A stretch of 64,000 bases of DNA from a virus (IMGVR_UViG_3300046674_000373:1-64000); one strand, 5' to 3'. Shown: positions 59,528-64,000, counted from the first letter of the stretch. Made by a program: numbers and translations. The notes: generated from the letters alone by a model not told the origin.

Positions 59528-62431
59528 TCAGCCAGCTCCCGATGGCGCCGGCATGGTGACGCGCTTCTTGATCGTGAACGGGTCCGCCATCTTCTGGCCG
59601 GTCGGGCTGACCAGGGTGATCTCGCCACTCAAGTTGATTGACTGCTGCGGTCCGCCTGCAGCCTGCTTGGGCGCGCCGTCAGGCATCGGCGTGGCGAAAT
59701 GCCCCCGATTGCGCGAGATGGTGGACACGTAGTCGGTCGTCTCGGCATTGCCCCACTTGGACTGGTCCCAGCCGCTGTTGTAGGCCGCCAGTGCGGCCTC
59801 GTCGGTCTTGAACTTGGCCTTGTTCTCGCGCATCACCTCGCGCTGGATGATGACCGCGTCATCCTCGTTGTACGGGTCGAGCTTGCGGCCGAGGCGTTGC
59901 TCGAGCGCAGCCAGCGTCTTCGGCATGACCTGCGCCAGGCCCATTGCGCCGCTCTTCTTGTTGTAGGCGCTTGGATTGAACCGGCTCTCCTTGCTGATCT
60001 GGGCGGCCGACGTACCAGGCGACAGGCCCACCTCGCGGTCGGTGCGCGCCAGCTCGCGCATGACCTTGTCCGGGTTCTTCAGGCTCGATGCGTTCGGGTC
60101 GGCGGGCGGCGAGCTGGCGCCGGGCGAGGCAGCGTCGATTTTGAGCTGGCGCACGTTGCGCTCGAGGCTGTCCTTCTCGTCCTGCTCGGCCTTGGAGAGT
60201 TGCTCCTGCAATTCGACGATGCGCTTCTGCGCCGCCGTGCGTTTCGCCAGCAGCTCGTCACGCTTCTGCTTCAGCTCGGCGCGCGCGGCATTCGCCTCTT
60301 CATCCGTCTTGGCGCCCAGGATCTTCGTGCGGTATTCCTCGCTCAGCTTGCCGAGCTCGCCGGTCGCGTCGTTCACGCCCACGCCCTTAATGATCGCGCG
60401 CTGCTCCTCGATGTCGGCGTCGTTCTTGGTCTTCAGGTTGCTCAGGCGCTCGCCGGACTCGGTGCGCATCACGGCCTCGGCAATGCCGGTCGAACCCAGA
60501 TGACCCTTCCCCGCCATGTGCACGATGCCGTACCGCATATCCGTCATGAGCGGCACCAGCTTGGTGGCGAGTTCCCGGATCCCCTTATCGACCTGGTTGA
60601 TCGACTCGCGGGTCTTGCTGCCGTCGGTCTGTTCCTGCTCACGCGAGAAGGTCAGCTCCGCCAGAATGTCGCGCAGCTTCTCGGTGTCGCCGCCGTCGAT
60701 GGCGGACTGCAGGCGCTGGTTTTCCTCGACCGACAGCGACTTGCGGCTCTTGCGCAGTGAATCGGCCTGGCCCAGCAGCGTCGAGCGGTCGCCGGTCTCG
60801 ATGTTGGCCATGGCCGAGATGCCGGTAGACGACAGCTGCCCCAGATCTAGGCCCAGCCGGCCCATGCGGCCGGTCATCCCGCCCAGTGACTGGGGCGCGA
60901 TCGTGTGCAGCGCCATCGCCTGATTCTCGTTCACGCCGAGCAGGCGCGCGGTCGCATTGAGCATCAGGCTCGGGTTGCTGGCGTAGTCGTGCTGGATTTT
61001 CGACAGGATGGTCGAGATATTGGTCTCGTCCGAGGTGGCGGCCGTCCCCGACACGCCGCCGCCGAATTTGGCGGAGAACTTCGAATACAGCGAGTCCTTG
61101 CCGAACGCCAGCCGTCCGGTGCCGAACGCGCCCTGCTGCTGGAGCATGGCGGCCTGCACCGGGTCGAGCCCGTATTTCTTGCCCAGCGCCGAGAACAGGT
61201 AGTTCTGGCCCGCCTCGCCGGCCGCGCCGCCGCCCATGATGGCGCCGTTGACGCGCCCGAGCAGCGCCGCGGCGCCCTGCGGATCCAGGCCCGGCGTGCG
61301 CGACGCCAGGAGGCCCGACAGCGATCCGGCATAGCCCTCGACGTTGGCCCCGGACAGGCTGGCACGCGACTGCGTGACTGCGAAGGACGAGATGACCTGC
61401 AGCACCTCGTCCATCTTGCCGAACGATCCGGACTTGCCGACCGCCTCGCCGATCATCAGCGCCAGGCGGCGGCTGTCGTTCGTGTTGGCGGTCACCTGGA
61501 ACTGGCGCATCTGCGCGAAAAACTGGTTCGACTGCTCCGGGTCCATGCCGAAGCTGCGGCCGAAGCCGCCGCCCACCGATACTTCGTCGGCCAGCGTCTT
61601 GTACTGCTCGCGCGAGATGCCCGACAGCCGGGCAAAATCTGCGCCGAGCTTCTGGGTCTGATCGAACGTGGTGTCGATATCGTAGGACGCGGCCCGCAGC
61701 GACTCGCGCAGCAGGTTAAAGCTGACATTCACGTCGCCCAGCGTGCGCTTCAGGGTGTCGTAACCGACGCCCTCCTGGCCGGCCGCGTCCGCCTGCCCCT
61801 TGATGGCGCCGATGCCCTTGCTGATACCAACGGCCGCCAGGCCGCCGAAGAGGCCCATCAGCCCTGCGGCCATCCCTCCGGCCATGCCAGCTGCGCCGGC
61901 GTCCGCAACAACGCCGCCGACCGGCCCGGCGGCGCGCAGACCAGCACGGGCAACCCCGCCCAGCGTTGAGCCGATAGTCGGCTCGTCCTTCCTTTTTCCG
62001 CCGCCCGAAGAGGAATCTGAGGCAGGGGCGCTCGGTCGCGCGCCGCTCGGCGTCGGCGCAGGGGCCGGAGCCTGGAGCCCATAGGCCGTGCCAGCAGTGA
62101 CATGCTGGAACGCCTGCTGCATCCGCTTCTGGCGCAGGACCGGGTCGTCGTAGAGCCGGTTCCAGTCGAGCGCGCCGAATGCGGTGCCCGATTGACCGGT
62201 CGCCTTGATGCGATCGCGCAGCGCGCCGGAGACCTTGGTGAGCTCCTTGAAGCGGTCCTCGATCTGCTTCAGCTCGGCCAGCGTCCCCTGGGGCACCGGG
62301 TTGAACTTCACCTTGTTGGCAGAGGCGACCGTCTGCGCAAGCCGGTTCATCTGCTCGTTGAGCTTGGCTATTGCTTTGTCGGTGTCGCTGCCGTCGAAGT
62401 CGGCGCTGACTGGGATTTTAATGCCGGTCAT
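59528..62431 (-). CDS. Tape measure protein with C-terminal lytic transglycosylase domain
   Basis: 967 residues, mostly helical, with Gly/Ala-rich membrane-like segments (~155-210, 'GLRAAGPVGGVVADAGAAG', 'GGMAAGLMGLFGGLAAVGIS'). Coiled coils occur at ~590-760. A transglycosylase domain (~800-900) has catalytic Glu in 'GTSAAQISKESRFNPSAYNK', 'GAMGLAQVMPKTLAALEQRL' and 'AALAAYNSGWDQSKW'. Its length sets tail length; the enzyme part opens peptidoglycan during injection. Confidence 0.92.
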   Translation of the reverse strand: MTGIKIPVSADFDGSDTDKAIAKLNEQMNRLAQTVASANKVKFNPVPQGTLAELKQIEDRFKELTKVSGALRDRIKATGQSGTAFGALDWNRLYDDPVLRQKRMQQAFQHVTAGTAYGLQAPAPAPTPSGARPSAPASDSSSGGGKRKDEPTIGSTLGGVARAGLRAAGPVGGVVADAGAAGMAGGMAAGLMGLFGGLAAVGISKGIGAIKGQADAAGQEGVGYDTLKRTLGDVNVSFNLLRESLRAASYDIDTTFDQTQKLGADFARLSGISREQYKTLADEVSVGGGFGRSFGMDPEQSNQFFAQMRQFQVTANTNDSRRLALMIGEAVGKSGSFGKMDEVLQVISSFAVTQSRASLSGANVEGYAGSLSGLLASRTPGLDPQGAAALLGRVNGAIMGGGAAGEAGQNYLFSALGKKYGLDPVQAAMLQQQGAFGTGRLAFGKDSLYSKFSAKFGGGVSGTAATSDETNISTILSKIQHDYASNPSLMLNATARLLGVNENQAMALHTIAPQSLGGMTGRMGRLGLDLGQLSSTGISAMANIETGDRSTLLGQADSLRKSRKSLSVEENQRLQSAIDGGDTEKLRDILAELTFSREQEQTDGSKTRESINQVDKGIRELATKLVPLMTDMRYGIVHMAGKGHLGSTGIAEAVMRTESGERLSNLKTKNDADIEEQRAIIKGVGVNDATGELGKLSEEYRTKILGAKTDEEANAARAELKQKRDELLAKRTAAQKRIVELQEQLSKAEQDEKDSLERNVRQLKIDAASPGASSPPADPNASSLKNPDKVMRELARTDREVGLSPGTSAAQISKESRFNPSAYNKKSGAMGLAQVMPKTLAALEQRLGRKLDPYNEDDAVIIQREVMRENKAKFKTDEAALAAYNSGWDQSKWGNAETTDYVSTISRNRGHFATPMPDGAPKQAAGGPQQSINLSGEITLVSPTGQKMADPFTIKKRVTMPAPSGAG

Positions 62432-62718
62432 ATGGGTTCGCCCCAGTCAGCGGGGTCGTCCTCCTCTTCCATTTGCTTCATCACCGCTTCCTTGTCGAAG
62501 TCTTCGTCCTCGATTTCCTCGCCGGGCGGCTTGTCGAAGTAGACGTGGGCCCAGTATTCGGCCTCGATCTGCTCGTACGTGGCGTCAAGATAGCGCGGGT
62601 CCGTCGGCGCCAGGTTGAACTTGCGCCGGTACCAGAACTCCAGCGACGTCGCCATCTCCCGGCCGCGGCGCTTGGACTGCTTGGCTCGCTCCCGTTCGAA
62701 AGGACTGCTCCTTTTCAC
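62428..62718 (-). CDS. Tail assembly chaperone, second frame (frameshift product)
   Basis: This frame has no good start of its own (the GTG at 62,718 has no clear ribosome site) and is open upstream into the preceding gene. Its product contains 'LEFWYRRKFNLAPTDPRYLD' and 'IEAEYWAHVYFDKPPGEEI', a T-type extension of phage tail chaperones. It ends four bases into the tape measure start. Expected to be made only as a fusion with the 63,004 frame by +1 (or -2) slippage. Confidence 0.78.
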   Translation of the reverse strand: MKRSSPFERERAKQSKRRGREMATSLEFWYRRKFNLAPTDPRYLDATYEQIEAEYWAHVYFDKPPGEEIEDEDFDKEAVMKQMEEEDDPADWGEPI

Positions 62719-63004
62719 GCAGGGCCGCGTGGACGGTGCGCAGTTTGGTGTAGGATTCCTGATCGAGCGGGTCGAGGTTGTCGATGTCCCAGCCCAGCGG
62801 TGCCGTCACGGTCAGGACCTTGAGCGCCGCGTACCAGCCGCCGACCAGCTGCAGCCAAGCGGTGGGCGTTTCCACCCCCTCGGTGACGCGCGAATACTCG
62901 GCCGAGATGCGCAGCTCGTCGCGCAGCATGCGCTTGGCGAAGGAAAAGGTGCCGACGCTCGGCACCTCGACGAAGAAATCAGTAGCTTCAGCGGGGCGGG
63001 TCAT
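62585..63004 (-). CDS. Tail assembly chaperone, first frame
   Basis: 139 residues in zero frame: 'ATDFFVEVPSVGTFSFAKRM', 'PTAWLQLVGGWYAALKVLTV', 'APLGWDIDNLDPLDQESYTK'. Placed between tail tube and tape measure, the fixed site of the G/GT gene. After 'LREKEQSF' the frame continues into a Gly/Pro/Ala-rich run with no folded look, consistent with shift into the second frame at or before TTTCGA (62,696-62,701). Confidence 0.82.
   Translation of the reverse strand: MTRPAEATDFFVEVPSVGTFSFAKRMLRDELRISAEYSRVTEGVETPTAWLQLVGGWYAALKVLTVTAPLGWDIDNLDPLDQESYTKLRTVHAALREKEQSFRTGASQAVQAPRPGDGDVAGVLVPAQVQPGADGPALS
62696..62715 (-). promoter_or_regulatory. Candidate programmed frameshift site
   Basis: On the minus strand GAAAAG (AAAA at 62,712-62,715) precedes TTT CGA (62,696-62,701). 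The two chaperone frames differ by +1/-2. A +1 slip of Phe-tRNA from TTT to TTC ahead of a CGA codon, or a -2 slip of Lys-tRNA from AAG to AAA, would both join them. Confidence 0.45.
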
Positions 63005-63060
63005 GTGGTCCTTGAATGGGAAAATGGGTTGGTGAATGCCAGCATGAGGTCACGACACGA

Positions 63061-63085
63061 AAAAGCCCGCACGCGGCGGGCTTTT
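63061..63085. terminator. Bidirectional terminator-like hairpin in the tail operon
   Basis: Perfect ten-base arms AAAAGCCCGC/GCGGGCTTTT with a five-base loop, between the tail tube gene and the chaperone. It could reduce transcription below the abundant tube and sheath genes. Confidence 0.75.
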
Positions 63086-63104: not shown

Positions 63105-63527
63105 TTATGCGGCCAGGCCGGACACGTCGGTCGCCAGGAAGGTACCGGACGACATAACGATGGCGTGCTTGGTGATCTCCAGCTCGCCCGAGGCATAGGT
63201 GCAGCCCATGTACTTGCGCAGCTCCTCGCCAGTGTCCTTGTCGTACGAGACGATGTCGAACACGAGGCCCTGCAGGGCGCCGTCGCCGTTCTCCGACGCG
63301 AGGCCCAGCTGGCGCAGGGTTGCACGCTTCATCACCATGGTGCTGACCGAAACGGTATGGCGCGCGATGGTGGGCACGTGCTCCTGGACGTGGATATCGC
63401 CGATGCCGCTGGCGGAGTCCGGCGCATAGTCGTCCGACATGCGCACCGACTGGATCAGCCCGACCTGTTTGCCGTCGAGCTGGATGACGATCCGGTTACC
63501 GGAGCGGACGTTCTGATTTTGCTTCAT
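63105..63527 (-). CDS. Tail tube protein
   Basis: 140 residues: 'RIVIQLDGKQVGLIQSVRMS', 'HVPTIARHTVSVSTMVMKRA', 'LVFDIVSYDKDTGEELRKYM', 'ASGELEITKHAIVMSSGTF'. A beta-barrel tube subunit of contractile tails, directly after the sheath gene. AGGAG lies eight bases before the ATG. Confidence 0.85.
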   Translation of the reverse strand: MKQNQNVRSGNRIVIQLDGKQVGLIQSVRMSDDYAPDSASGIGDIHVQEHVPTIARHTVSVSTMVMKRATLRQLGLASENGDGALQGLVFDIVSYDKDTGEELRKYMGCTYASGELEITKHAIVMSSGTFLATDVSGLAA

Positions 63528-63539
63528 TTATACGCTCCT

Positions 63540-64000
63540 TTAGATCGAGGCCGTGCCGCTGTACGGGACGGCGAAGATGGTCACCGGGATGAAGTTGACC
63601 GGGATCACCGGCGAGCACTGGAACTCGACGCGCAGCACGTCGCCCTCCAGCGAGGCGCTGATGTTTTTGTAGGCGGGGCTGTTCTTGTCGCCGACGATGA
63701 CGCCCGGGCCTTGCGGCTCCGGCCGGGCCAGTTCGCGCAGGGTCGAATCGGCAATGCTCACCGCGCGCGAGAGCACAATCGGGTTGCCCTTCTCGCCCCG
63801 CAGGACGTCCAGCGCCTCGCGCACGTTGCGCGCCACGAAATCGACCGCGACGCCGCAGGAAACCTCGACCCGGTTGTAGTTGTCGTTCCCCAGCCAAGTG
63901 GTGATCGACTTGACCACCTTATAGCCAGACGAGGTGTTCTCGACGCACAGCACGCCAGCATCGATCAGCACATCGGTGTCGGTCGGGTTGCGCAGGCTGC
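63540..64000 (-). CDS. Tail sheath protein, C-terminal part, cut by right edge
   Basis: 153 residues to the edge, in frame with no start inside the window. 'LRNPTDTDVLIDAGVLCVEN' is the usual sheath 'D-x-D-V-L' region, followed by 'VDFVARNVREALDVLRGEKG' and a final 'EFQCSPVIPVNFIPVTIFAV'. Forms the contractile outer layer. The reading direction shows that the remaining late genes lie to the right. Confidence 0.82.
   Translation of the reverse strand, partial: SLRNPTDTDVLIDAGVLCVENTSSGYKVVKSITTWLGNDNYNRVEVSCGVAVDFVARNVREALDVLRGEKGNPIVLSRAVSIADSTLRELARPEPQGPGVIVGDKNSPAYKNISASLEGDVLRVEFQCSPVIPVNFIPVTIFAVPYSGTASI

Follow-up and report, generated by a model that had tools for sequence, protein, structure and literature searches.

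A conserved UUU_CGN site and a probable +1 frameshift in the tail assembly chaperone genes of a contractile-tailed phage and its SPO1-type relatives

The window analysed here is a stretch of 64,000 nucleotides (IMGVR_UViG_3300046674_000373:1-64000) from a 96,165-base virus contig, and it carries the tail assembly chaperone pair, of the lambda G/GT type, of a contractile-tailed phage of approximately 90 kb. As the initial annotation had proposed, two overlapping frames of the G and T types lie between the tail tube and tape measure genes, on the minus strand: a zero-frame gene (62585..63004) and a second frame in the +1 position (62428..62697). Comparison with related loci leads us to conclude that the two are very probably joined by a +1 slip of the P-site tRNA-Phe at TTT CGA (62696..62701, minus strand), yielding a G-T fusion protein. 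In the following sections we discuss the conservation of this site, the manner in which the ribosome might be shifted, and the gene products.

Frame relation and relatives

The zero-frame open reading frame begins with ATG and encodes 139 amino acids, of which residues 1-102 precede the shift, while the T-type extension starts with a GAA codon at 62697 and comprises 89 residues up to its stop at 62428. On the descending strand the codons of the former fall at positions equal to 1 modulo 3 and those of the latter at 0, which places T at +1 with respect to G. The T half alone matches phrog_25000 (tail assembly chaperone) with an E value of 6e-8, and the fused translation does so over residues 15-184 with an E value of 4e-11; the match to the whole fusion being the stronger, the overlap is not a chance one.

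For comparison 124 loci were collected, 87 of which are distinct at a cut-off of <80% nucleotide identity; they span proteobacterial myophages of approximately 90 kb and the Herelleviridae (SPO1, A511 and Kayvirus). A profile search with patterns inside the T part, which are independent of the site, supplied 77 additional loci. All 92 loci that were scored as one set have the second frame at +1 and a homologous T. In a further scored set the same relation holds in at least 16 loci, the sole exception being L108, which scored +2 with weak profile scores and was excluded from the 124. Slippage in tandem by -1 (X_XXY_YYZ) was rejected, as all securely placed loci have the second frame at +1.

The nearest named relatives are Bordetella phage PHB04, Pseudomonas phages Touem01, Dolphis and Jeremy, Aeromonas phage ST4, Yersinia phage fHe-Yen8-01 and Enterobacter phage phiT5282EW. 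These are phages of about 90-96 kb with a gene order identical to that of the source phage, and in the named near relatives TTT CGN is present in the zero frame exactly where homology moves from the G to the T frame. The search with the T half also matches Spounavirinae. The +1 relation was found in the Herelleviridae-type representatives SPO1, CampHawk, LysYB2, Goe26, LpeD, LfeInf, P59 and Grass, and in Romulus, A511, MCE-2014 (Kayvirus), EFLK1, Brochothrix A9, Lb338-1 and Alsa_2; all of these carry TTT CGN at the junction except LfeInf (TTT CTG) and Alsa_2 (TTT CAA). A query with P59 matches 569 phage records, mostly of Staphylococcus, Bacillus, Enterococcus and Listeria phages. The initial annotation had described +1 shifting as the rarer kind, which is true of tail chaperones overall but not of this lineage, where +1 is the rule, including in the Herelleviridae representatives tested.

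Two further observations concern the records themselves. The 112-kb plasmid RHOApe of Rhodovastum atsumiense (NZ_OW485606.1, L127), which is probably a phage-plasmid, possesses a sheath gene and the chaperone pair with the junction CGA TTT CGC. Several RefSeq records of Herelleviridae label the T half "RNA polymerase beta subunit" (for example L121 785-1294, L122 749-1285 and L123 713-1219); a Pfam and NCBIfam scan of one of these, L122, revealed no polymerase match in the T half.

Conservation of the shift site

Comparison of the sequences establishes, beside the frame relation, where the site lies and that it is conserved at the nucleotide level. The codon placed in the P site at the junction (62701-62699 in the source phage) is TTT in 87 of 87 distinct loci, and the base that follows is C in 85. 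The A-site codon is CGA in 32 loci, the source phage among them, CGC in 31 and CGT in 16, giving TTT followed by one of these three in 79 of 87; CGG was never observed, nor was a stop codon. The remaining A-site codons are CAA (three loci), CAG (two), CTG, AAA and AGA (one each). Since CAA, CAG and CTG also start with C, the logic of the P site is kept in these exceptions. Elsewhere in the same genes 37% of phenylalanine codons are TTT and CGG accounts for 20% of CGN codons. The codon preceding TTT, which would occupy the E site, is TCC in the source phage (62702..62704, minus strand) and TCC or TCT in 55 of the 87 loci (36 and 19, respectively).

Other conserved phenylalanine columns of these genes served as a control. 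In the proteobacterial group, seven such columns are 26-54% TTT as against 100% at the site, and in the Herelleviridae the values for five columns are 56-83% versus 100%. The motif is also prominent when all in-frame pentamers within each permissible shift window are counted: TTTCG occurs in 79 of 87 loci, whereas the runner-up occurs in 36. In eight loci the shift is confined to 14 nucleotides around TTT, since the +1 frame is closed by a stop five bases ahead of TTT and the zero frame by one that lies nine bases past the first T. The site was placed in most loci by the end of the G profile, while for some Herelleviridae, as for L054, L090 and L091, it was assigned to whichever in-frame TTTC or TTTCG lay nearest. 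This choice introduces a slight bias towards the motif, and neither the 14-nucleotide loci nor the pentamer count rests on it in the same way. The overlap, like TTTCG, is kept in the relatives.

In the source phage a Shine-Dalgarno-like sequence, AAGGAG (62708..62713, minus strand), is located six bases before TTT and is the likely stimulator. GGAG is found at -10 in 45 of 60 loci of the proteobacterial type, and in this group the mean energy of the duplex with the anti-Shine-Dalgarno sequence peaks at -7.8 kcal/mol at -12. Of the two codons that make up the element, one is GAG in 47 loci versus GAA in six, and the other is AAG in 38; both GAG and AAG exceed the genes' own usage (P about 1e-6 and 4e-7, respectively). 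In the protein alignment the lysine column is 97% AAG and the glutamate column 89% GAG, values that equal or exceed the highest of those in other conserved lysine and glutamate columns. The element is absent before TTT in the Herelleviridae loci. Downstream RNA structure as a stimulator was sought in both groups, and none was found beyond that of shuffled sequences (mean z near 0).

Proposed mechanism and alternatives

Most ribosomes would remain in the zero frame and produce only G, of 139 amino acids. A minority would pause when tRNA-Phe sits on UUU in the P site and the A site holds CGA, whereupon the tRNA would move one base forward, from UUU to UUC, with which its anticodon GAA pairs better. 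Translation would then restart at GAA (62697) in the +1 frame and give a G-T fusion of 191 amino acids. In the source phage and its proteobacterial relatives AAGGAG probably pairs with 16S rRNA and aids the shift; the Herelleviridae would use the same site in its absence. Both the slip and its efficiency are inferred by us from the comparisons above.

The same frame can be reached by a slip of -2, in the style of phage Mu, with one extra residue in the product, and the initial annotation had accordingly named the event as being of the "+1/-2 type". Shifting of the Mu type is indeed known in tail chaperones (PMC5009743). After a -2 movement, however, tRNA-Phe would face CCU, CUU, GAU, CGU and other codons, which vary between loci and are mostly unpairable, whereas the +1 movement brings it to UUC, with perfect re-pairing in 85 of 87 distinct loci; moreover, mass spectrometry of the identical nonamer in PA-X found +1 only (PMC3498833). 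We therefore favour the +1 half of that designation and consider the -2 half very unlikely. The two should be distinguishable from the junction peptide, which is expected to be EQSFER for +1 and EQSFFER for -2 in the source phage, and AYDNWYHSFVNQVNPEK or AYDNWYHSFFVNQVNPEK, respectively, at the site TCC TTT CGT of SPO1.

Somewhat less likely again is that G and T are separate proteins, T being initiated either at a start codon of its own or by ribosomes that reinitiate after G, which is how most database records present it, as an open reading frame with a downstream start. The initial annotation stated that the second frame lacks a ribosome site of its own, and this proved correct: the only candidate starts in the source phage, numbered from TTT, are GTG at -17 and ATG at +46, and neither is preceded by a Shine-Dalgarno match of four or more bases at suitable spacing. 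Of the 87 distinct loci, 18 lack any ATG, GTG or TTG in the stretch of the T frame that runs from the last stop upstream to +84 nucleotides, an ATG with a Shine-Dalgarno sequence exists in just four, and the start positions are scattered. Homology and the confidently modelled fold, furthermore, begin close after the shift site, and TTT is fixed even though the position is synonymous. Least probable of all is a shift elsewhere in the overlap or slippage during transcription: GAAAAG, the other site offered by the initial annotation beside TTTCGA, does lie some 12 bases upstream in the source phage but is present in just 16 of 87 shift windows and falls to the eight loci that exclude everything but 14 nucleotides around TTT, and the runs of T are too short for polymerase slippage.

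Certain observations count against the +1 slip of tRNA-Phe at TTT CGN as set out above. Two loci have an A following TTT (L082, TTT AAA AAG; L116, TTT AGA AAA AAT), and we would guess that they may use the nearby AAA_A instead. L054 has TTT AGA at the canonical position and, about eight codons upstream and inside its shift window, a TTT CGT. These three loci, in which TTTC has been lost at the canonical position, possibly represent natural site replacement. The pair TTT|CGN is not avoided elsewhere in the open reading frames of the window (seven seen, eight expected), from which it follows that the bare pair is probably just weakly shifty. The spacing of the Shine-Dalgarno-like element, six bases, is longer than the three bases of prfB, and the role of the element is uncertain. 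Lastly, the 87 loci share ancestry, such that multiplied probabilities overstate their independence; it is this problem that the within-gene phenylalanine columns address.

As to why the A site should be restricted, inosine-bearing tRNA-Arg reads CGA, CGC and CGU, and one reading of the exclusion of CGG is that it is linked to this tRNA. An explanation by a rare tRNA of phage or host was considered and rejected; the 64-kb window holds no tRNA genes, and scarcity at the A site is disfavoured because the codons used include CGC and CGU, which are common in many hosts. More broadly, and with somewhat less than even confidence, we suggest that (UCC/UCU)_UUU_CG(A/C/U) may serve bacteria, as it serves eukaryotic viruses, as a conserved signal for programmed +1 shifting, acting through re-pairing of P-site tRNA-Phe together with a feature of the A-site tRNA-Arg that reads by inosine, rather than through a scarce tRNA. 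Were this true, a recoding site would have evolved independently, or persisted, across domains.

Gene products and neighbouring genes

G and T were folded separately. The AlphaFold2 model of G residues 1-102 has a mean predicted local distance difference test score of 92.9 and closes with a helix at residue 101, immediately ahead of the shift; the model of the T part is confident from the first residues after the site. Foldseek against viral models (BFVD) matched G with a tail assembly chaperone of Bacillus phage JL (E value of 5e-4), while Foldseek against the PDB gave no significant match for G, nor did a sequence search of solved structures yield any. A second alignment to solved structures ranked the HK97 tail assembly chaperone (2OB9) first, a modest similarity (Z of 5.1, root-mean-square deviation of 4.1 over 85 residues). 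The expected client of the chaperone is the tape measure protein. If the pair works as lambda G/GT does, the G part would coat the tape measure and the T part would recruit tube subunits.

The tape measure gene (59528..62431, minus strand) encodes 967 amino acids with an SLT lytic transglycosylase domain (phrog_669, E value of 5e-146; PF01464, E value of 2e-12) and overlaps the end of T by four bases. On the other side is the probable tail tube gene (63105..63527, minus strand; phrog_985, virion structural protein, E value of 8.5e-39), the position of which matches that of genes annotated as tail tube or major tail protein in SPO1, Dolphis and LysYB2. It is adjoined by the sheath gene (63540-63998; phrog_279).

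Between the tube and chaperone genes the minus strand contains a GC stem (GCCCGC...GCGGGC) followed by TTTTT at 63060-63081. A generic terminator scan did not report this stem. By a simple fold test, a stem with a run of T is present between these genes in 40 of 81 distinct loci, and the CampHawk record annotates a terminator in the same position. Such a structure may lower expression of the chaperone relative to the tube protein.

Comparison with known systems

The source locus belongs with the +1 tail chaperones of the SPO1 type. The GenBank record of SPO1 (FJ230960) states that gp11.1 is made only within a joint product, by +1 slippage. SPO1 gp10.2/gp11.1 is a homologous pair (phrog_25000) that likewise precedes the tape measure gene and has the +1 relation and the site TCC TTT CGT; it differs from the source phage in lacking the Shine-Dalgarno-like element, in its longer T and in its Gram-positive host. 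For Bacillus phage Moonbeam, a relative of SPO1, an "unusual +1 frameshift" in the tail chaperone was noted in 2015, the part of that account available to us naming neither site nor motif (PMC4299906). Shifts of -1, -2 and +1 in the chaperones of tailed phages have been listed by Atkins and colleagues, who regard +1 as "very likely" in HSTV-2 (PMC5009743). Lambda G/GT and most other tail chaperones (-1), Mu (-2) and HSTV-2 (+1) share with the present pair its role, gene order and outcome but differ in direction and slippery sequence.

Like the present site, that of prfB combines a +1 slip of the P-site tRNA with an upstream Shine-Dalgarno-like element, but its A site holds a stop codon where the present one has an arginine codon. 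In bacteria, sites of the form UUU_Ynn tend to undergo +1 shifting, as in YopN-TyeA (PMC5009743), which shares UUU_Y with the phages but is a single case and involves no conserved virus gene. According to the authors of PRFect, no general motif for forward frameshifting in bacteria or phages has been identified (PMC10885494). In the open-access literature we found no paper describing UUU_CGN as a phage tail chaperone shift site, or its conservation; papers behind subscription, Xu 2004 and Stewart 2009 among them, lay outside the search, and priority is uncertain. What appears new is the conserved UUU_CGN cassette, its spread, the exclusion of CGG and the Shine-Dalgarno-like element of the proteobacterial phages.

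The closest parallels to the site itself are found in eukaryotic viruses. Influenza A PA-X uses UCC_UUU_CGU, for which the +1 shift has been proven by mass spectrometry and explained by re-pairing of tRNA-Phe from UUU to UUC; changing its E-site UCC reduces shifting by 40-70% (PMC3498833). This nonamer is carried exactly by SPO1, CampHawk and LysYB2. UUU_CGN has also been described for plant amalgaviruses and other eukaryotic viruses (PMC5052127), and human PLEKHM2 contains the near-identical UCC_UUU_CGG (PMC12551717). The phages thus have in common with PA-X and the amalgaviruses the P-site UUU_C, the CGN A site and the proposed slip, and with PA-X the E-site UCC. They differ in that the eukaryotic cases involve eukaryotic ribosomes and unrelated genes, in that amalgaviruses use all four CGN codons whereas the phages never use CGG, and in the Shine-Dalgarno-like element, which is an addition of the proteobacterial phages. 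With the motif fixed across the Herelleviridae, including the Kayvirus and A511 groups, and in many proteobacterial phages, the fused chaperone could be annotated correctly. Bacillus subtilis with SPO1 offers a tractable bacterial system in which to study ribosome shifting at UUU_CGN, the mechanism of which has been in question since influenza PA-X.

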